A DNA stretch of 64,000 bases from a candidate division Zixibacteria bacterium SM23_81. GTDB taxonomy: Bacteria; SM23-81. The DNA is taken from positions 1 through 64,000 of the forward strand of contig LJUY01000002.1 in NCBI GenBank assembly GCA_001304015.1. Direction: 5' to 3'. The translations under genes and the position numbers were made by a program. Positions 4,966-14,491 of this stretch are shown here, in pieces; the stretch's first letter is position 1, and each line of letters begins with the position of its first letter. The notes beneath the pieces are model-generated. The model searched no databases. It was not told where the DNA came from and saw only the letters and a program-made list of their open reading frames with translations.

Positions 4966-5071
4966 AAAAGAGAGATCTCGTCGGGCATCGAGCTTCGAGG
5001 GACGAGTCCCGAAATGAGTCAAGTGTTTCGAAGCTGAAAAACAACAGACGACAATTGCGGACCCTTTTTAC

Positions 5072-5107
5072 GAGTACAGCAGCCACGCTGCCGCCTTATC
5101 CCCCACT
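5072..5107. repeat. Hairpin repeat, family C, copy 2
   Basis: A diverged copy of the unit at 4829-4864 (CAGCAGCCACGCTGCCGCC, then TTATCCCCCACTG). It is followed directly by an ATTCCCGC...GCGGGAAT inverted repeat at 5111-5152. Confidence 0.5.
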
Positions 5108-5110
5108 GTC

Positions 5111-5152
5111 ATTCCCGCGAAACTTGTCCTCATGAAAATGGGGAGCGGGAAT
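5111..5152. repeat. ATTCCCGC inverted repeat
   Basis: ATTCCCGC at 5111-5118 faces GCGGGAAT at 5145-5152 across 26 bases. It is a longer-spaced relative of the palindromes at 5459-5522 and closes the 3' side of the GIY-YIG remnant. Confidence 0.6.
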
Positions 5153-5458
5153 CCAGGGTTTTGCAGTTCATCATATAAATCCTTCCAATATGGATTGGCA
5201 CTTTCTATCAACTGAAGCTTCCATCTTCTGCTCCATTTTTTCAATTGCTTCTCCCTCTGTATGACAGACTTAATGTCATGACATTGCTCATAGTAAACCA
5301 ATCTATGCACCTGGTGTTTACTGGTAAATCCGGGGATAAGATCGTTCTTGTGCTCATATAGACACGTCTGATGAGATCGTTTGTGACACCAATGTACAGA
5401 GTGTCATTTCGTTTGCTGGCCAATATGTAAACATAATAGGTTTTCATAAAGTCTCTGG

Positions 5459-5522
5459 ATTCCCGCTTGCGCGGGAATGACAATCATTAAAAACCTCTCA
5501 GGATTCCCATTTACATGGGAAT
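5459..5522. repeat. Doublet of dRS3-like palindromes
   Basis: Two perfect ATTCCC-N8-GGGAAT palindromes, 5459-5478 and 5503-5522, are spaced by 24 bases. The ATTCCC-N8-GGGAAT plan matches the dRS3 repeat of Neisseria, which serves there as a phage insertion target; the resemblance is in layout only. The doublet flanks the 5' end of the GIY-YIG remnant. Confidence 0.75.
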
Positions 5523-5810: not shown

Positions 5811-6137
5811 ATGCCTTTCTCCAGGACACTGGTCCTTCTCTTTGTCTGCATGATTGTCATCTCCTGCGGCGATGCCTCCCAAAAGGAAGTCTCCCAGGCC
5901 GAGGAAAAGCTCTTTGTGGATGTCTACGTGAAGCTCGTTCAGGCTGCTCACGATCACCATGATGATCCCGATGGTCTGGCGGCGGCCCATCAGGCCGTCT
6001 TTCTAGAAATGGGTACAGACCGGGATCGATTTCTCTCTCTGGCCCACCAGATGGAGGCATCCCCAGAGAGATGGGCTGTGGTCTGGGAGCAGATCGTGAA
6101 GAGGCTGCAGGAGGAAGGAAAAAAAGAAGGGGGCTAG
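5811..6137 (+). CDS. Small predicted lipoprotein of unknown function
   Basis: I do not recognise the family. The 108-residue product starts with a short signal peptide and a lipobox-like VISC (Cys at about 19) followed by GDASQ, so it is probably lipid-anchored outside the cytoplasm. The mature part is mostly helical, with charged residues and a His/Asp patch (HDHHDDPDG near residue 47) that might bind metal. The gene converges with yraN, and a GC-rich palindrome overlaps its stop. The upstream spacer is repeat-derived and no promoter is clear. Confidence 0.65.
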   Translation: MPFSRTLVLLFVCMIVISCGDASQKEVSQAEEKLFVDVYVKLVQAAHDHHDDPDGLAAAHQAVFLEMGTDRDRFLSLAHQMEASPERWAVVWEQIVKRLQEEGKKEGG

Positions 6138-6146
6138 CCCCCCTTT
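6127..6146. terminator. Possible bidirectional terminator between convergent genes
   Basis: AAGGGGGC and GCCCCCCTT face each other around the TAG stop of the lipoprotein gene, followed by TTTCT. The position between two convergent genes fits a shared terminator; the loop is very short. Confidence 0.45.
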
Positions 6147-6184: not shown

Positions 6185-6544
6185 TCAAGCTGAGAAAGCA
6201 TTGACGATATGTGTCAGCTGGGCTTCTTTCTCATCCAATAAGATGGCGATGACGTCAAAGCGGCAGTTGTCCTCGCCGGCGCTTTTCCCCATCAGATACG
6301 CCTCGGCGGCGCGAATCAGATGGTCCCGCTTTCGGAAGTTGACCCAGCATTGAGGGGGGCCGAAGGAGAGGTTTCGCGCCGTTTTTACTTCAACGAAGAC
6401 CACGATCCCCTCACGTTGGGCGATGAGGTCGATCTCACCATGGCGTGTTCGATAATTTCGCTCTAAAATGTGATAGCCTTTGCGCTCCAGATAAGCTGCG
6501 GCCATCTGTTCTCCCCTGTGGCCCAGCTCTCGAAGCCCTCTCAT
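6185..6544 (-). CDS. yraN: YraN/UPF0102 family nuclease-like protein
   Basis: A small protein with the restriction-endonuclease fold; the biochemical role of the family is not settled. The 119-residue product shows GEIDLIAQ and VFVEVKTAR, the acidic/lysine pattern of the PD-(D/E)xK fold. The ATG at 6544 is chosen: it begins one base after the stop of the upstream protease gene and gives the usual N-terminus, whereas the longer frame adds 27 residues of shadow sequence. In many bacteria yraN follows rnhB directly; here it is the last gene of the peptide cassette, about 7 kb from rnhB. Confidence 0.9.
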   Translation of the reverse strand: MRGLRELGHRGEQMAAAYLERKGYHILERNYRTRHGEIDLIAQREGIVVFVEVKTARNLSFGPPQCWVNFRKRDHLIRAAEAYLMGKSAGEDNCRFDVIAILLDEKEAQLTHIVNAFSA

Positions 6545-6545
6545 C

Positions 6546-9293
6546 TCAAAAGCCCCCAGGGTAGGTGCCCACCCGTATGTTCCAGGCCGGTCGCCATGAT
6601 GCGACCTCGTCCCGCAGATTCTCACAAACAGCCAGCAGATCTATTCTCACTGCCAGGGGGCTGTTGCCCAGAAACCTTAGGCCCAGACCCAGCTCCGGGA
6701 CGATCTTCACGCGACTGCCCTGAGAGCCCAAAAGGCCGCATCTGCCCACCAGGGCCACGGCCAGATATGACCACACTGGCCTGCTCAACTCCTGACCGAC
6801 GGACAGGCAATTGCCGCCAGCGTATCGGCCTTCCCTGAACCCATACAGGTGTGCATCCCGCCTGAGATCGAATTTTGCTTCATGATCAGCAAAGCCGTTC
6901 AGCAGGAGGCCTCCAAAGAGGCGCAGAGAATATCTGAAGCTCCGGAAAAGGAGATGGTGGCGCCAGACCTCAATGGAGAAACGGTGGTAGCAGGAGGTTC
7001 CCCTGGGAAGGTAGAAGCCTCCCTCCCAAGTGATCCAATAGAGATCTCCAAAGGTGGGAAAAAAAACGGTCCTTCGTCGGTTTAATATGTACTCCACACA
7101 GAGGCTGAATCTGCTTTCGCCCCCCGGCTGGTGACCATATCGTCCCCGTAATTTTAAGATCCGATAGGGCGTCCTGCAGAGAAAGGGGCTCCATATCCAG
7201 CGAACGGTCCCCTGGAGACCTCTCGATTGGGCCTCCGCGAAATACCTCACGCCCATCATGGCCCTTTTTCCCAGAAACCTGGCTCTCATAGAAGCTCCAA
7301 TCTGCCCACACCATCTCTTTTTCTGACATCGATAACGAAATTCACTCCCCAACTCATGCTCCGGCTGGAATATGAAGGGCGTCGACATCATCATCATACC
7401 TCTTGTGATCAAGCCTATGCCAACTTGTTTTTCTCCTGAAGATCCAAAGCGAACGCTGGGATAAATTTGCCCCTGAAAAACTTCAGGATTAACATTAGAT
7501 GATGGCCATAACGAAACAATTATTCTTCTTTTATATGGACAGAAGTTGTTGGCCGGTTGCGTGTCAAGAATTTCCTGATCCGAGGCCAATCGAGCCGACT
7601 GGACAGGGCGAGTTGAGGAGAGAAGGAGCTCCCATTTCCTGGCTCTGCCGTCCCACCGCTTTCTGACTCGAGTGCCATCATGCAGACTCACTGTTACCGT
7701 CACGGGCATGATGATCTTTCCTCTCCTATCCATCCTGAGACGAGTGACATATCCTTGGCTCACACGTCGGCATCGAAAATCCGCGATGGCGTAGTCGCAT
7801 CTGAAAGTGGTCGCAAACCACTGTTGAAAAAACCAGTCCATGTCCCTTCCGGCCACTTCACGGGTTACATCCATGACATGAGAGGTGGTCACCACCGTGT
7901 GCTCGGGCAAACCTAACAATCTCCTGCAGAGCAGCAGAAAGCCGTCGTTCCCCAAAAGATTCGCCAACATCTGCAGCACCAGGGGAGCCTTGGCATAAAC
8001 CGCTCCCTGGTGGCTCAAGGATTCACGAAACTGGCCGGCCATCAGGGTCATCTTGTCCTCCATCCCGAACCGGGCCAGGTTCAAATAGAGCCCACGACTG
8101 AGCCAGGAGAGAGATATACGAGGAAGCGCTCCCCCAAGCAACTTCCTCTTGATCAGCCAACCACTCGTCCCGTGATGAGCGCGCATGTAGGCGAATTCCC
8201 AGAATTTCGCAAAACCCTCGCAAAACCAGGGTTCACGAGCATCCACCCGTTCGCCCCACCACTGATGTGCCGCTTCGTGGGCGATGGTCGCCTCAAAAAG
8301 ATCGCCTAGGACATCGAGATCGTACAACAGGCCGCTGAGCAAACACAATCCCGGCAGAGAAAGCCCAGCCAGGGGAAGATGCGTTTCCACCACAGCATAC
8401 CGACGGCGGGGATACCATCCCAGACGCGCTCCCAGGAAAAGCAGGGCTCGACCGGCATACATGCCCGCCAAGGGCCCCTCTTTCCGGTGCCGGGGCAGGT
8501 AATATGAGCTCACCGCCACTCCATGGGCCCAGGTGGTAGAGATCAGGAAATCCCTGCTGCCCACCCAACCGAAGCGGCGAACGTGAACAGCAGACCAGGT
8601 CTGAACACTCAGGTCTCTCCTCTCTCGTCTGGCACCCTCCAGAAATCCTGTGGCGGCCACCACCATGCCCGCTGGCAATCTCAGGCGCACCCGGTAGTCG
8701 GCGAAGTTGGCCAGGGATTCTTCAAGAGCAACCCTTTCCTGGTACAACCAGCCATCCTCCGTGAGAAAAGCCATCTGGGGATGCCACGTGGCCATGGTGT
8801 AGATCCCTTTCCAGTAACCAAAATGGGCGTTGAGGCGTGGGATTTTCACCCAGAACTCCATCTCTACCTTGGCTTGCCCTCCCGGTGGAATGATTTCAGG
8901 GAGGGAAATTACCATCCAGGTCCCTTGCACGACGTATTCGGCCATTTGGCCGTCCACCAGCACGGACCCAATCTCGATATATCCGCCATCATCCCCTCGG
9001 GGGAAGGCTCGCAGGGGATCCTCAAAGGCGTCCAGTCCCTGTGACCAACGGCCCAGTTCAGTGATTTCAGCGGCTCTGGAGGAGTTGGGGAATAGGTGAA
9101 AGTACAGCTCGTCCAGCGATCTCTGGGACCAGTTAGAGATCTCGACCAGCTGGTTGGCGCTCAAGCACCGATTCCCCTCATCTAAAGCGGCGTCGAGGTG
9201 ATAGCGGAGGCTTTCGCCTTTGGCGGAGGCACACAAAAGCGGGATAATCCCCAGCAAAAAGCTCAGGAAGCCTCGGTGGCGCCAAAGACGCAT
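6546..9293 (-). CDS. M1-type zinc metalloprotease with barrel-like C-terminus
   Basis: Predicted exported zinc protease of 915 residues. A signal peptide lies at residues 1-25 (MRLWRHRGFLSFLLGI...CASAKG). The catalytic motif HEAAH is at 339-343, with a second zinc-ligand Glu in CEGFA at about 359, spaced somewhat closer than in classical M1 aminopeptidases. The GxMEN exopeptidase motif is replaced by AGLSLPG, so endopeptidase or altered activity is possible. The last 300 residues have short alternating hydrophobic strands, many aromatics and a terminal Phe (GTYPGGF), suggesting an outer-membrane beta barrel. It begins four bases after the upstream membrane-protein gene and ends one base before yraN. 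In context it could process or export a modified peptide; that is inference. Confidence 0.8.
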   Translation of the reverse strand: MRLWRHRGFLSFLLGIIPLLCASAKGESLRYHLDAALDEGNRCLSANQLVEISNWSQRSLDELYFHLFPNSSRAAEITELGRWSQGLDAFEDPLRAFPRGDDGGYIEIGSVLVDGQMAEYVVQGTWMVISLPEIIPPGGQAKVEMEFWVKIPRLNAHFGYWKGIYTMATWHPQMAFLTEDGWLYQERVALEESLANFADYRVRLRLPAGMVVAATGFLEGARRERRDLSVQTWSAVHVRRFGWVGSRDFLISTTWAHGVAVSSYYLPRHRKEGPLAGMYAGRALLFLGARLGWYPRRRYAVVETHLPLAGLSLPGLCLLSGLLYDLDVLGDLFEATIAHEAAHQWWGERVDAREPWFCEGFAKFWEFAYMRAHHGTSGWLIKRKLLGGALPRISLSWLSRGLYLNLARFGMEDKMTLMAGQFRESLSHQGAVYAKAPLVLQMLANLLGNDGFLLLCRRLLGLPEHTVVTTSHVMDVTREVAGRDMDWFFQQWFATTFRCDYAIADFRCRRVSQGYVTRLRMDRRGKIIMPVTVTVSLHDGTRVRKRWDGRARKWELLLSSTRPVQSARLASDQEILDTQPANNFCPYKRRIIVSLWPSSNVNPEVFQGQIYPSVRFGSSGEKQVGIGLITRGMMMMSTPFIFQPEHELGSEFRYRCQKKRWCGQIGASMRARFLGKRAMMGVRYFAEAQSRGLQGTVRWIWSPFLCRTPYRILKLRGRYGHQPGGESRFSLCVEYILNRRRTVFFPTFGDLYWITWEGGFYLPRGTSCYHRFSIEVWRHHLLFRSFRYSLRLFGGLLLNGFADHEAKFDLRRDAHLYGFREGRYAGGNCLSVGQELSRPVWSYLAVALVGRCGLLGSQGSRVKIVPELGLGLRFLGNSPLAVRIDLLAVCENLRDEVASWRPAWNIRVGTYPGGF

Positions 9294-9297
9294 GGTG

Positions 9298-10014
9298 TCA
9301 GCTCTCTTCTTTTTCGATAATAGACAGAGAAGAAGACCATATCAACCTCAGGCTCTCAAAACAGGCGCCCAGCGTTCGCATCACGGAATAACGCCCCTCC
9401 CTTTTGGCCCTGATGATATTGGCCAAATCCGTGGGAAGAACCACGCTGTAAGGCCACAGAGAGCTGAGCAGATAGAGGATCAGCGGCAGAAACCGATGCT
9501 GAAGCAAATTTCCCATATAAGACCCAGAATCCAGAAAGACAAGAGACCAGAGGGCTAAGGCCAGCAGAAGGCAGAAAATTGGGCCTGGAGCCGAAATATG
9601 TATTCTGTCCAATGGCGTAAGAAAACCCCTGTAGCGCACGGCACAGCCATAACAGATCAGCTTCCTACCCCCGGCCGTCATCCGAAACGCCGCCACAAGG
9701 TCGATGGCCTTCTGGGGTAGCCCTTTTTGAATACAAACCCAAAGATGGAGGAACTCCTCGAAGGCCATTAGCGTGGGCAGCAGGAGCAGTTGCAGCGAGA
9801 CCCCAAAAAAGAGTGTCAAAGAGCCCCGGGTAAAGCTGGCCACCAAAAGGATTCCGGCGACGACCATGAGCAGTGCTATGTTGACAATGGCTCCAAAAAA
9901 AGAGCCATACAGCCGGATGCTCAAAGACACAAAGGCCTTCATGGGATAACGACGAATTTTCATGGGTAAACAACAGACTATCAGCTGCACTTTTCTGTCA
10001 GCTCTTGGCACCAC
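9298..10014 (-). CDS. Multi-pass membrane protein, degenerate M50-peptidase-like
   Basis: About 238 residues with four to five membrane segments (near 38-60, 66-84, 143-161 and 176-195). The layout recalls site-2/M50 proteases, but the zinc motif is degraded: FEEFLH at 85-90 lacks the first His. A HISAPGPIF segment (139-147) resembles the GP motif, and LPTDLANI (193-200) resembles the third-ligand region. It may therefore be an inactive relative, or a peptide transporter or processing partner. GTG starts at 10014 or 10011 follow AAAGGGAG; later ATGs (the two MK starts) have no ribosome site. It lies between the radical SAM gene and the exported protease in one transcription unit. Confidence 0.65.
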   Translation of the reverse strand: MVPRADRKVQLIVCCLPMKIRRYPMKAFVSLSIRLYGSFFGAIVNIALLMVVAGILLVASFTRGSLTLFFGVSLQLLLLPTLMAFEEFLHLWVCIQKGLPQKAIDLVAAFRMTAGGRKLICYGCAVRYRGFLTPLDRIHISAPGPIFCLLLALALWSLVFLDSGSYMGNLLQHRFLPLILYLLSSLWPYSVVLPTDLANIIRAKREGRYSVMRTLGACFESLRLIWSSSLSIIEKEES

Positions 10015-10055
10015 GCGCTCCCTTTACCAAGCCTGTGCTTTTTTTCAAAGTCATA

Positions 10056-10247
10056 TCAGCTTGACCTATAGGTGATTTTAGAGTCACCTCTCAGATAAGT
10101 CAACGGCAAGCATGTGCGGTATGATTCTAAGGGATCCTCCTCCTTTTCCCAGACTTCCTGGGATGCATCTGGCTTAACTGGTTTATCTCCGGAGCTTCGG
10201 GATCCCATTGATCCATATGAAACCCTGGGATAGGTAAGAAATGCCAC
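10056..10247 (-). CDS. Uncertain 63-residue ORF in the peptide cassette
   Basis: An open frame with a GTG start, 12 bases after the radical SAM stop and 42 bases before the membrane-protein start. The product has no recognised domain; it is hydrophilic, with an acidic middle (WEKEEDPLESY near 34-44) and one Cys. Third codon positions are less G/C-rich than in the neighbours and the ribosome site is weak, so it may be non-coding. If real, it is the second small peptide of the cassette and a possible substrate. A palindrome, AGGTGA-N8-TCACCT, lies inside its 3' end at 10070-10089. Confidence 0.3.
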   Translation of the reverse strand: MAFLTYPRVSYGSMGSRSSGDKPVKPDASQEVWEKEEDPLESYRTCLPLTYLRGDSKITYRSS

Positions 10248-10258
10248 CTACGTTGAGC

Positions 10259-11632
10259 TCAGTACAGGTATTTACGAAAATCGTAGCCTTCGACCGTGCA
10301 TGGGTCCACAGGTGGCGGAAAGAGGTTCACCATACCGGGCTTGGTTGACCTGCGTAACCGATCTATGGACTCAAAATGCAGATTTCTGATTTGCTCGCGG
10401 CTGAGGTGCTTCGTCTGCATCACTGGAGTATAAAGATTGTAACGCCCATAGTCCCTTTCCTGAATGGCCAGCCCCAGCCGGTGAGCATCTCGAAACATAG
10501 AGGTTCCAGGAAAGGGTGTGGCGATGGAAATTCCCACCTGGGCATAGTATTCCCTCTGGAGTTCCTCTGCAAACTGGATGGTTTCCGTGATCGTTTCCAC
10601 AGTATCTTGCGGCAATCCGATCATAAAAGTGCCCACAGGACTGATTCCGGCTTTGGCCGCTCCCGCCACGGCAGCCACCACCTGGTCCAAGGTGGTCCCC
10701 TTTCCCAACCCCCTGAGGACTCTCTGGCAGCCGGACTCAATCCCAAACTGCACCCCGGCACATCCCGCTCGAGCCATTTTTTGGAAGAAGCCCGGATCCT
10801 CGATATCCACTCGTGATTCGCAGAGCCAGGGTAGATCGATCTCTGCTCGCTCCATCAGGTAAAGGATGCGGTCCAGCCTGTCCAAGTCGGCCGTTAAGGA
10901 GTCGTCGACGAACAACAGGAACTCCATGCCCATCTGGCGCAAGATGCGAAGCTCCCATAGGACTTTCTCCGGGCTTCGCTTGCGATACCGGCCGCCAGAC
11001 ATGGCCCCCGCCGAACAGAAAATGCACCGTCCGGGACAGCCGCGGCCGGTGATTACAGCTCCGGCGTTACGGTATTTATCGAGAAAGAGGAGGTTCCGCG
11101 CCGGAAGTGGAATATGGTCGAGCTTCTCCATCATGGGCCGGGGAGGAGATCTGTGTAAATGGTTTCCCTTTCTCCAACAGATCCCCTCAATGGCCTCCAA
11201 GTGGCCCTCTCCTCGAATATAAAAGTTGGCCAGCTCCAAGAGCGTGTGCTCTCCCTCGCGCAGGACGACCACATCAAAACAATCATTTTCCAAAACCTCA
11301 TCGGCCATGAAGGTGACATGAGGTCCACCCACGACCACTGGGATGCGTTGACAGAATTCCTTAACCATAGTCGCGATGCGAAAGGCATTAGGGTAGGACT
11401 CTGTCAGGGTCGAGATGCCCACCATCCTGGGCCGTTTTATGACCAAAAACCGCCGTAGATACCTGGGAGTAAAGCACCTCAAACCGAGATCCACCAACTG
11501 CACGCGATAGCCATTTTCTCGTAAAACGGCCGCCATATAAGCCAGGCCCAATGGGGGAGTGCAGGAGAACTCGGAGGCAGCGGCAGCCAAAGGGCTTGGG
11601 GTGGGCGATGCGATCAAGGCCAAATGGATCAT
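10259..11632 (-). CDS. B12-binding radical SAM enzyme
   Basis: Predicted 457-residue class B radical SAM enzyme: an N-terminal cobalamin-binding domain (PPLGLAYMAAVLRENGY; VVVGGPHVTFM near residues 100-110) followed by a radical SAM barrel with cluster motif CPGRCIFC (Cys199, 203 and 206). Class B members often methylate unactivated carbons or rearrange substrates. No SPASM cysteine set is visible at the C-terminus. The ATG at 11632 overlaps the PqqD-like stop as ATGA, giving tight translational coupling; the longer frame is read-through of the PqqD end. With a PqqD partner and a small peptide upstream, a peptide substrate is the best guess. Lipid or cofactor modification is an alternative. 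Confidence 0.9.
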   Translation of the reverse strand: MIHLALIASPTPSPLAAAASEFSCTPPLGLAYMAAVLRENGYRVQLVDLGLRCFTPRYLRRFLVIKRPRMVGISTLTESYPNAFRIATMVKEFCQRIPVVVGGPHVTFMADEVLENDCFDVVVLREGEHTLLELANFYIRGEGHLEAIEGICWRKGNHLHRSPPRPMMEKLDHIPLPARNLLFLDKYRNAGAVITGRGCPGRCIFCSAGAMSGGRYRKRSPEKVLWELRILRQMGMEFLLFVDDSLTADLDRLDRILYLMERAEIDLPWLCESRVDIEDPGFFQKMARAGCAGVQFGIESGCQRVLRGLGKGTTLDQVVAAVAGAAKAGISPVGTFMIGLPQDTVETITETIQFAEELQREYYAQVGISIATPFPGTSMFRDAHRLGLAIQERDYGRYNLYTPVMQTKHLSREQIRNLHFESIDRLRRSTKPGMVNLFPPPVDPCTVEGYDFRKYLY

Positions 11633-11955
11633 GGCACCAGCTCCTCGAAGATAACCCCATAGGGCTGTAAAGGAGACCAATGGCGTAGAATCAGACCTTC
11701 TGTTTCGGCAACGCTTAAAAACTTTTCCAGATCCTCTTGGAGGCGCTCCCGGGGCACATGGGGAAAACGATCCCTGAGAGCGAAAAGAATCTCCTCTGTG
11801 CTATGGCCACCGTCCAATAGCCTCCAAATAAGGGAGGCCGTTTGGTTCAATCGGATCAATCCATGAAAGGTGTACACCAGGATTCCAGGACCTTCCTCTC
11901 CAACCTCAGACTTCCAATAAACAACCCGGGGGTATGGCGCTGAGCGCTCCTTCAT
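11629..11955 (-). CDS. PqqD-like peptide-binding protein (RRE)
   Basis: A 108-residue protein with the PqqD/RiPP-recognition fold: a beta-rich N-terminus (PRVVYWKSEVGEEGPGIL), then RLNQTASLIWRLLDGG near residues 46-61, and helices through LQEDLEKFLSVAETEGLI. Such proteins hold the leader of a precursor peptide and present it to a radical SAM enzyme. The ATG at 11955 is chosen because AAAGAGGAGGTTA lies just upstream; the longer frame would run through a stable hairpin (11980-12019). It overlaps the radical SAM start by four bases. A C-terminal extension of about 20 residues (HWSPLQPYGVIFEELVP) follows the usual domain. Confidence 0.88.
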   Translation of the reverse strand: MKERSAPYPRVVYWKSEVGEEGPGILVYTFHGLIRLNQTASLIWRLLDGGHSTEEILFALRDRFPHVPRERLQEDLEKFLSVAETEGLILRHWSPLQPYGVIFEELVP

Positions 11956-11979
11956 GTTATCCGGTAACCTCCTCTTTGG

Positions 11980-12019
11980 AATTCTGGCAGCGAGCCAAAT
12001 GCGGCTCGCCACCAGAATT
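11980..12019 (-). promoter_or_regulatory. Stable stem-loop between peptide gene and pqqD-like gene
   Basis: On the transcribed strand a 17-base arm AATTCTGGTGGCGAGCC pairs with GGCTCGCTGCCAGAATT around a six-base loop; two of the 17 pairs are G-U wobbles. No T run follows, so it is not an intrinsic terminator. Hairpins directly after small-peptide genes commonly stabilise or partly terminate the mRNA so that the peptide is made in excess over its enzymes. That role is inferred here from position. Confidence 0.75.
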
Positions 12020-12066
12020 TGATCTCCATGATCTTCCGCGGATCCCAGCCCAGAAGGAGGCAATCC

Positions 12067-12204
12067 TCATGGTTGGGTCAGGGTGGTCCCGATGGTAATC
12101 AGAACGCAGGCCACCAAGGTCATCCACGGTATCTTCGGGGCAAAAAACGTTTCCTGCCCCTCAAGCTCCTCCACCACTTCGAGGCTCGGGGAAGAGTAGA
12201 TCAT
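12067..12204 (-). CDS. 45-residue peptide, candidate RiPP precursor
   Basis: A small gene with a strong ribosome site: AAAGGGGGTGATAGCG directly before the ATG. It overlaps the last 44 bases of the glycosyltransferase in another frame. The product has an acidic N-terminal half (MIYSSPSLEVVEELEG, 1-16), a hinge (FFAPKIP, 20-26), then a hydrophobic, Thr-rich tail with one Cys33 (TLVACVLITIGTTLTQP, 29-45). A charged leader-like part before a different tail, immediately upstream of a PqqD-like protein and a radical SAM enzyme, is the usual arrangement of a modified-peptide precursor. I recognise no known family. The tail could instead be a single membrane span of a small anchored protein. Confidence 0.72.
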   Translation of the reverse strand: MIYSSPSLEVVEELEGQETFFAPKIPWMTLVACVLITIGTTLTQP

Positions 12205-13411
12205 CGCTATCACCCCCTTTCCTTTTCAATCTCATAGGATGGCCACATGCCTCCCGGTAAATTCTTAAAAGTAGCGGCCCGACCTCTGGCCAACTTCGCG
12301 CCTTCTGGCGAGCTTCTGTCGCTATCTGGCGATGAAGCTCATGGTCATAAAGAACCATCTCCATGGCCTTCAAAAGGCTTTTGCGGTCGCCAAAGGAGAA
12401 CTTCAAGCCGTTGACTCCATCCTTGATCAGCTCGGCCAGGGCGCCGCAATTTGCCGCCACAACAGGGAGGCCATTCTGCATGGCCGCCAAGACCAGATTT
12501 CCAACAAAATGCGCTCTTCCAGGCATCACCATCAGGCTGGCTTGACGATACAGTTCCTCCTGGTCCCTCCGTTGGCTAATTTGGTCCACAAACAGAATGC
12601 GATCGGCCAGGTGAAGTTTTCGAATCATCTTGCGAGCATGAAAGCCGTAGAAGGAGTTGGGGGATGTGACCATGATGATTTGCAGGTGCTGAGCCTTACC
12701 AGCCGCGAGCTGAGAACAGGCCTGTAGTACATCAGCCACTCCGCTTCGTGGGCCCGGGGAATCTACGAAGAGGATCTTCTTCGCCCTCCCCTGGAACCTG
12801 GTTTCTCCTTCTTCATGAGGGGTGATGCGCTCAGGAAAAGGGGGCACGACGGCTAAGTCTTCTTCCCGCACCAGAAAGAGATCCTGTATTTTCTTTTGCA
12901 TGTATTGATCTGGACAGACCAGGCGATGGCAATGACGAATGATCCATCGCTCTATATAACGAGGATAAGCCAGTGTGGGATCGGCCATCCAGGGCTCACG
13001 TTCCCAAATGGCATCTTCCAAGGTACAGACCAGCGGTAAGCCCATCATCTGACAGAAAAGACCGCTGGCCAAAGCCGACTCCCAGCCGACGCTGTGAACC
13101 AAATCGGCCTTTATGCCTCTTCGCCGAAGGGAGATCATCGTCGCCAGCAAGCTGAGATTGCACTGCAGCAGGGCCTCATGACGCATTTCGTGCAACCTGC
13201 TCATCGGTATCACGCGCAGCAGTGGGGCCTGCAGACGTACAAAATTCCGGCCAAAACGCTGAGGCACCTGTTCATCGAACCCTCCAGTCAGAATCGTCAC
13301 CCGCACTCCCTGACGGGTTAGGCTGGCAGACATATCGGCCAGCTGAAGAAGGGCGCTATGCCCTGGTTGAGTAGAGGCGATCCCCTGGAGATATGTTAGA
13401 AGCACATGCAT
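12161..13411 (-). CDS. GT4-family glycosyltransferase heading the peptide cassette
   Basis: A predicted 416-residue GT-B glycosyltransferase. The N-terminal lobe has MHVLLTYLQGIASTQPGHSA, where PGH replaces the usual GG motif. The C-terminal lobe has ILFVDSPGPRSGVADVL and ASLMVMPGRAHFVGNLVLAA, with AELIKDGVNGLKF near residue 350; the EX7E motif is atypical. The ATG at 13411 has CAGGAGACG upstream, and the 40 extra residues in the longer frame look non-coding. It is the first gene after the terminator at 13485-13520, and its 3' end overlaps the small peptide gene, which couples the two. It may glycosylate the peptide product, or be an unrelated cell-surface enzyme sharing the operon. Confidence 0.82.
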   Translation of the reverse strand: MHVLLTYLQGIASTQPGHSALLQLADMSASLTRQGVRVTILTGGFDEQVPQRFGRNFVRLQAPLLRVIPMSRLHEMRHEALLQCNLSLLATMISLRRRGIKADLVHSVGWESALASGLFCQMMGLPLVCTLEDAIWEREPWMADPTLAYPRYIERWIIRHCHRLVCPDQYMQKKIQDLFLVREEDLAVVPPFPERITPHEEGETRFQGRAKKILFVDSPGPRSGVADVLQACSQLAAGKAQHLQIIMVTSPNSFYGFHARKMIRKLHLADRILFVDQISQRRDQEELYRQASLMVMPGRAHFVGNLVLAAMQNGLPVVAANCGALAELIKDGVNGLKFSFGDRKSLLKAMEMVLYDHELHRQIATEARQKARSWPEVGPLLLRIYREACGHPMRLKRKGGDSDDLLFPEPRSGGGA

Positions 13412-13484
13412 GCGGTCGTCTCCTGGCCATCGCTGCCTTCCCTCAAAGCGACATTCTACCAAGTCCTGTGCCAAAAACAGGCAT

Positions 13485-13520
13485 AAAAAAATCCCCAACT
13501 CACTTTGCTCTAAGTTGGGG
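13485..13520 (-). terminator. Intrinsic terminator between rnhB and the peptide cassette
   Basis: On the minus strand CCCCAACT pairs with AGTTGGGG across 12 bases and is followed by ATTTTTTT. It would end the ribosomal/rnhB transcript, so the downstream cassette needs its own promoter or read-through. No clear -35/-10 pair is visible in 13412-13484. Confidence 0.85.
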
Positions 13521-13696: not shown

Positions 13697-14491
13697 TTAA
13701 CCCGTTCTCTCCAATACACCCCGAAAGCTTCTTCGGTGAACGAGACAGGGGCCATAGCGCCGCAGGGCTGCCAGGTGCTCCCGGGTGCCGTAACCCTTAT
13801 GGCGAGCAAAACCGTACTGCGGATGCTGGTTATCCAGGTCCCGCATGATCTGATCCCGGGTTACCTTGGCCACCACAGAGGCCGCGGCCACCGATAGAGA
13901 GCGGGCATCCCCATCCACCAAGGGAGTCTGCGAGACAGAAACCCCTGGTATGGGCAGAGGTCCGTCGACTAACAGGTGATCTGGCCTCAGGGACATGGAA
14001 GCCAAAGCTCGACGCATGGATTCCCATGTGGCCTGAAGAATGCCCACCGTGTCGATGCGTTCGGCCGATACGATCCCCAACCCAAAGGCCAGAGCTTCGT
14101 CCAAAATCCTCTGCGCATGAGCCTCCCTCGCCCCCGGTGTGAGCCGTTTTGAGTCGTCCACCCCAAGCCAATGGCACGGCCAGGGAGCGACCACGGCGGC
14201 CGAGACGACCGGTCCAGCCAGGGGACCCCTGCCGGCCTCATCGAGACCGGCTATGGCCCTAAACCCCTGTCGGCGCAGATTTTTCTCGGGAGCGATAAGA
14301 TCTCGCAGACGCACCTTTGCTCTGAGACGCTGGTCCTTCGTTTTTTGAAGGGATCGCCACAGCTTCAGGGCTCCCCGACGCGAATCCCCATGGAGCTGAT
14401 CTCGCATCTGTTGGTCAAAACCCTCACCACTGCGGATGAGATCCCGAATCTGTGCAAGGCTCAACTGGGCGATCTGGATTGATCCCGGCAT
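13697..14491 (-). CDS. rnhB: Ribonuclease HII
   Basis: Removes the RNA strand of RNA-DNA hybrids and misincorporated ribonucleotides. 264 residues. The catalytic core begins GLDEAGRGPLAGP (Asp84, Glu85), followed by VDDSKRLT near 111-118 and a DGDARSLSVAAASVVAKVTRD region near 190 holding further acidic residues. An N-terminal helical extension of about 75 residues precedes the core, as in Bacillus-type RNase HII. It follows rplS, as in many bacteria, but a 315-base repeat island separates the two genes, and the usual next gene, yraN, has been displaced about 7 kb downstream. Confidence 0.95.
   Translation of the reverse strand: MPGSIQIAQLSLAQIRDLIRSGEGFDQQMRDQLHGDSRRGALKLWRSLQKTKDQRLRAKVRLRDLIAPEKNLRRQGFRAIAGLDEAGRGPLAGPVVSAAVVAPWPCHWLGVDDSKRLTPGAREAHAQRILDEALAFGLGIVSAERIDTVGILQATWESMRRALASMSLRPDHLLVDGPLPIPGVSVSQTPLVDGDARSLSVAAASVVAKVTRDQIMRDLDNQHPQYGFARHKGYGTREHLAALRRYGPCLVHRRSFRGVLERTG

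Follow-up and report, generated by a model that had tools for sequence, protein, structure and literature searches.

ApyD of the aminopyruvatide (apy) pathway is a B12 radical SAM enzyme that contains a RiPP recognition element (RRE) and makes beta-methyltyrosine in a RiPP (PMC10635010), and another RiPP cluster pairs a B12 radical SAM with an adjacent RRE protein (PMC12257519). Lasso-type RREs bind the leader motif [Y/W]xxPx[L/V/I/F/A] (PMC13381572), and a YxxPxL leader motif has also been described elsewhere (PMC10368454). Outside lasso pathways, a YxxP leader is recognised by an RRE in the linear polyphosphorylated peptides (LPP; PMC13381572). In Bacillus, the epipeptide operon yydFGHIJ encodes a peptide of ~50 aa together with a radical SAM and a protease anchored in the membrane (PMC7026026). 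Here we describe a locus of candidate division Zixibacteria bacterium SM23_81, within the 64,000 nucleotides analysed from contig LJUY01000002.1 (the window), that is probably a RiPP-type cassette, in which a lasso-type leader would be presented by an RRE to a B12 radical SAM and the product then handled by an M50-like protein and an M1 peptidase-barrel protein.

The cassette is a single minus-strand unit between the terminator of rnhB (13520-13493) and a second terminator (6145-6127), in the order GT4 glycosyltransferase, 45-aa peptide, PqqD-like protein, B12 radical SAM, degenerate M50-like protein, M1 peptidase with a probable Omp85-type barrel, and yraN. All six genes that an earlier note had named lie on the minus strand, with the coordinates below, and yraN (6544-6185) also falls inside the range it covered (6185-13411).

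13697..14491, minus strand: rnhB (RNase HII; PF01351 match), the left boundary, outside the cassette
13493..13520, minus strand: intrinsic terminator after rnhB, 10-bp stem plus ATTTTTTT, kept at the same place in the relative G001
13458..13474, minus strand: possible cassette promoter, TTGGCACaggacTTGGT, sigma-54-like -24/-12 with GG for GC at -12, as read from the sequence
12161..13411, minus strand: GT4-type glycosyltransferase, 416 aa (Pfam Glycos_transf_1, E 7e-20)
12067..12204, minus strand: candidate precursor peptide, 45 aa, MIYSSPSLEVVEELEGQETFFAPKIPWMTLVACVLITIGTTLTQP, with leader motif YSSPSL and a hydrophobic C-terminal half
11980..12019, minus strand: RNA hairpin of 17 bp that follows the peptide gene and stops shortly ahead of the Shine-Dalgarno of pqqD, without a T run
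11629..11955, minus strand: PqqD-like RRE, 108 aa (PF05402, 54.4 bits against a cut-off of 23.4)
10259..11632, minus strand: B12-binding radical SAM, 457 aa, with CPGRCIFC (PF02310, 82 bits; PF04055, 80 bits)
9298..10014, minus strand: degenerate M50-like membrane protein with EEFLH, HISAPGP and LPTD (Pfam E 0.018); the start may be the ATG at 9963
6546..9293, minus strand: signal peptide, M1 metallopeptidase (HEAAH..E; PF01433, 41.5 bits) and probable Omp85-type beta-barrel, 915 aa
6185..6544, minus strand: yraN (UPF0102; PF02021, 104 bits), a housekeeping gene and the right boundary, in the same unit as the cassette
6127..6145, minus strand: intrinsic terminator closing the unit, 7-bp stem plus CTTTTTTT

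The genes had been described as a run of tightly spaced or overlapping frames. Overlaps do exist, and pqqD (11955-11629) and the radical SAM gene (11632-10259) share the reported ATGA, but gaps of 111 nt (peptide gene to pqqD, filled by the hairpin) and 244 nt (radical SAM to M50-like gene) interrupt the run. Promoter-like sequence TTGGCAnnnGAnTTGGT is retained in G001 just past the rnhB terminator, as far as the contig end (TTGGCA...TTGGT), and positions 13458-13474 may serve as the cassette promoter. Neither an exporter nor an immunity gene is evident within the unit, a point against a RiPP pathway. Beyond its closing terminator, the window holds a GIY-YIG-like nuclease ORF, apparently split across two frames (5068-5483, minus strand) and surrounded by REP-like sequence of the 'FPRKRESRDF' type. 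A REP-associated transposase-like ORF with REP-like sequence lies downstream of yraN and a lipoprotein-like gene on G001 contig C92 (L154 600-1643), and matches the position of this region of the window.

G001, the only relative found in a scan of genome contigs, is a Ca. Zixiibacteriota MAG of the same family as the window genome. Its contig C288 (DAOVRJ010000248.1) carries the peptide gene, pqqD, the radical SAM gene, the M50-like gene and the start of the M1 gene in the same order as in the window, with identities of 67% (peptide), 66% (PqqD), 72% (radical SAM), 53% (M50-like) and 57% (M1). The remainder of the M1 gene is on contig C92, where yraN comes next and then, as in the window, a lipoprotein-like gene on the opposite strand; rnhB, with the terminator and promoter-like sequence of the window, stands at the end of contig C60. 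Since this gene order is kept in the same family and the peptide is under protein-level constraint, the cassette is not a chance arrangement. In two genomes from another family of the phylum (G002 and G003), the rnhB and yraN genes overlap and leave no room for other genes, which identifies the cassette as an insertion. Judged from these sequences, it is a lineage-specific unit: of the four genomes examined, only those of the window's family have it at the rnhB-yraN site.

The peptide gene begins with an ATG at 12204 behind a strong Shine-Dalgarno (AAAGGGGGTGAT) and overlaps the 3' end of the glycosyltransferase gene by 44 nt. Between the window and G001, 38 of its 135 nucleotides differ while 31 of 45 residues are kept (pN/pS ~0.36), and in 20,000 simulations of neutral change at this nucleotide divergence, 31 of 45 residues were never kept; the 45-aa ORF is therefore a gene and not a chance ORF. 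The earlier reading had been made to depend on a conserved small ORF in related loci, and one is found at the same place in G001, immediately upstream of pqqD in both genomes. The locus thus has a short conserved precursor gene beside modifying enzymes, as expected of a RiPP cassette. The conserved hydrophobic core reads F.APKIPW.TL.AC.LIT.G.TL. A profile search of 386 genomes with the peptide returned only chance-level matches outside the family, the best of them (E 0.005) within a frame of 461 aa.

The N-termini of the two peptides, MIYSSPSLEVVEELEG in the window and MIYSSPDLEIVEEFEG in G001, contain YSSPSL and YSSPDL, respectively, which fit [Y/W]xxPx[L/V/I/F/A]; the strict form [Y/W]xxPxL is expected ~0.014 times per 45 aa, as estimated from short frames of the window. 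Among solved structures, the best match of the PqqD profile is TbiB1 (5v1u; E 3e-4), an RRE that binds lasso leaders, and this match together with PF05402 indicates the peptide-binding RRE of a RiPP pathway. One PqqD scores above the cut-off in each of the window genome and G001. That the PqqD-like protein presents the peptide had already been proposed, and the lasso-type motif and the TbiB1 match now add support of their own, so that leader binding and presentation by this protein are strongly indicated.

The regions that hold the hairpin between the peptide gene and pqqD fold at z -4.25 (window) and -4.75 (G001). Sixteen pairs can be compared between the two, of which five changed on both sides (compensatory), five changed on one side, six are unchanged and none is broken. 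A shuffle control gave 20/500, a weak result with two sequences, and sliding the pairing by 1-3 columns left 33-46% paired. The hairpin may be an RNA element that uncouples expression of the precursor from that of the enzyme, so that more precursor than enzyme would be made.

The radical SAM enzyme has the class B (cobalamin) layout, a B12 domain followed by a radical SAM domain with CxxxCxxC, in agreement with the earlier report of CPGRCIFC plus a B12 domain. None of the named NCBIfam radical SAM families recognises it, the best scores being roughly 20-35% of the curated cut-offs. By score the top named family is the ApyD equivalog NF050148 (169.3 bits against the 750 needed); TIGR03975, the RiPP maturation radical SAM C-methyltransferase, reaches 94.2 of 281.85 bits, and the hopanoid, chlorophyll and cofactor B12 enzymes HpnJ, BchE and BzaD reach 166/578, 154/481 and 92/450 bits. 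Because all these scores are far below cut-off, the reaction cannot be read from homology. In a tree of 53 homologues, the three enzymes paired with an RRE (window, G001 and the distant genome G317) form one clade (97/86), and the next branch is an enzyme beside an acetyltransferase-like gene (G101). Clustering with a lipid- or cofactor-modifying family, which the earlier note had considered damaging to its proposal, is not seen: the enzyme falls in no such NCBIfam family and sits in its own RRE-paired clade. Considering the precedents of ApyD and the B12 radical SAM of PMC12257519, the reaction is probably C-methylation or C-C bond formation.

In G317, pqqD is directly followed by a radical SAM gene whose product is 35% identical to that of the window, and no M50 or M1 genes lie alongside. 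The ORF ahead of this pqqD contains WRAPLL and a V-rich, Cys-containing stretch, GAGAAIVVVVVCVAVAARPGG; apart from these, the putative precursor is dissimilar to the window peptide. A run in the middle of this ORF (L075 2884-3351), AAIVVVVVCVAVAA, is reminiscent of a hydrophobic RiPP core. Among 20 other PqqD-bearing loci that were fetched, a homologous radical SAM occurs only in that of G317, and B12 radical SAM homologues elsewhere have no PqqD within 1.5 kb. In the screens made, a PqqD beside such a radical SAM is found nowhere other than in the window, G001 and G317.

The M50-like protein scores 14.9 bits against a Pfam cut-off of 27.2. In both the window and G001, EEFLH stands in place of HExxH, with loss of the first zinc His, while LPTD, at the place of the distal D motif, and the GP motif (HISAPGP) are kept; this replacement suggests that the protein may bind or pass the peptide instead of cutting it. 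Across 386 genomes, its profile has no convincing relative beyond the family, E 4e-4 over a short stretch being the best other match. The M1 protein retains the zinc site and catalytic Tyr of its family (HEAAH, E359 and Y433 are invariant in the alignment), with 15 residues instead of 18 between the second His and the Glu. The aminopeptidase motif GxMEN is replaced by AGLSLPG in the window and AGLSMPG in G001, which argues against aminopeptidase action; the G002 and G003 paralogues have GGMEY. PF01103 (Omp85) has no match in the window or G001 protein, and the aligned homologues score 23.9 bits against a cut-off of 24 (G002) and 17.6 bits (G003); the C-terminal domain may be an Omp85-type barrel. 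The phylum also has M1 metallopeptidases of ~974 aa with an Omp85-like C-terminal barrel that are not accompanied by the peptide cassette (L155 5047-7971 and L156 858-3782), each adjoining a gene of repeated 'TTNGGI' motifs. The claim that the two protease-like proteins cut or export the peptide is unsupported so far, with the first HExxH His missing from one and GxMEN from the other. No homologue of the glycosyltransferase was found in G001 at E 1e-30, where its expected place is the assembly gap between contigs C60 and C288. Glycosylation of the peptide is possible, the glycosyltransferase being linked by its position and gene overlap only.

For the probable RiPP-type cassette, the following course can be proposed. 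The leader (about residues 1-16, MIYSSPSLEVVEELEG in the window) would be bound through its lasso-type YxxPxL motif by the discrete PqqD-like RRE, which would hand the 45-aa precursor to the B12 radical SAM, whose gene overlaps pqqD. The enzyme would then act on unactivated carbons of the conserved hydrophobic core, with C-methylation or C-C bond formation as the likeliest reaction. The M50-like protein at the inner membrane and the M1-barrel protein at the outer membrane would then handle, cut or pass the product, a processing step and a product role that we only infer. A more ambitious version, tentative and rather doubtful, sees here a new class of RiPP that has reused a lasso-type leader for a cobalamin radical SAM; the hydrophobic, carbon-modified peptide would be carried across the envelope by a pseudo-M50 protein together with an M1 endopeptidase fused to an Omp85-type barrel of the outer membrane. 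Only two close instances and one distant one are known, which counts against reading the locus as a RiPP cassette, as does the hydrophobic, membrane-like core, with which the peptide could act unmodified.

In its outline, the parts list (small peptide, RRE, radical SAM, peptidase and glycosyltransferase) is also that of mycofactocin, and the locus might instead make a peptide-derived cofactor in the manner of PQQ or mycofactocin. The RRE and radical SAM would modify the peptide, peptidases would trim it down to a small redox molecule, and this would be glycosylated by the glycosyltransferase. This is improbable, as no PQQ or mycofactocin NCBIfam model recognises the proteins, the radical SAM is B12-type without SPASM, the peptidases are of membrane and outer-membrane type, no partner dehydrogenase is encoded in the unit, and a Tyr-containing motif is absent from the end of the core. 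The peptide might also stay unmodified, as a small membrane peptide with a regulatory or anchoring role for the M50-like and M1-barrel proteins, while PqqD and the radical SAM act on another substrate. Membrane peptides are frequent substrates of the M50 family, the C-terminal half of this peptide is hydrophobic, and M1-barrel paralogues exist without pqqD and the radical SAM. However, the leader has the motif of RRE ligands, pqqD comes directly after the peptide gene in both genomes and each genome has a single PqqD, which makes this quite improbable.

An acetyltransferase-like gene beside the G101 enzyme, on the next branch of the tree, and the 150-166 bits reached with HpnJ and BchE would be consistent with a radical SAM that modifies a lipid or glycan together with the glycosyltransferase, PqqD and the peptide being accessory. 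This is highly improbable given that these scores are far under the cut-offs, that the enzyme belongs to the RRE-paired clade and that the unit contains no lipid genes.

If the RiPP-type cassette is real, it would add a RiPP pathway for a candidate phylum that has barely been sampled, with a lasso-type RRE and leader and a B12 radical SAM replacing the lasso enzymes; a literature search returned nothing on radical SAM RiPPs in Zixibacteria. The peptide would be a defined small substrate for probing an unplaced clade of B12 radical SAM enzymes, and the cassette would allow a test of whether an outer-membrane peptidase-barrel acts on a modified peptide.

The earlier note did not recognise the combination as a named system, and this holds: no described match was found, and PQQ, mycofactocin, lasso, epipeptide, apy and hopanoid/BchE-type systems were rejected. 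PQQ and mycofactocin likewise comprise a peptide, a PqqD-like RRE, a radical SAM and a peptidase, with a glycosyltransferase in mycofactocin, but their radical SAM families are of the SPASM type and their peptides differ. For PQQ, the PqqD equivalog TIGR03859 gives 33 bits against 46 and the radical SAM is B12-type, not a SPASM PqqE; for mycofactocin, the PqqD-like protein matches no MftB/MftC model and none is among the radical SAM matches listed. Like yydFGHIJ, the cassette has a peptide of about 50 aa, a radical SAM and a membrane protease-like protein, whereas its M50-like protein lacks the first zinc His, an M1-barrel is present and there is no ABC transporter. YydG is an epimerase that is not known to have a B12 domain or a discrete RRE. 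The lasso leader-RRE pairs (TbiB1 and FusB1) share the discrete PqqD-like RRE and the YxxPxL leader. A radical SAM takes the place of the lasso enzymes here, no Pfam or NCBIfam domain of a B2 leader peptidase or asparagine-synthetase-like C cyclase being found in the unit. LPP likewise use a YxxP leader with an RRE outside a lasso context, but with other enzymes, the leader YxxPxVLxHQxIxFET and in Bacillota. The apy system shares a B12 radical SAM and an RRE acting on a precursor peptide; ApyD carries its RRE within the enzyme, whereas here the RRE is separate and no P450, MNIO or methyltransferase is present. The cassette belongs to no named system that was tested, and it would work like the RRE-guided radical SAM RiPP systems.
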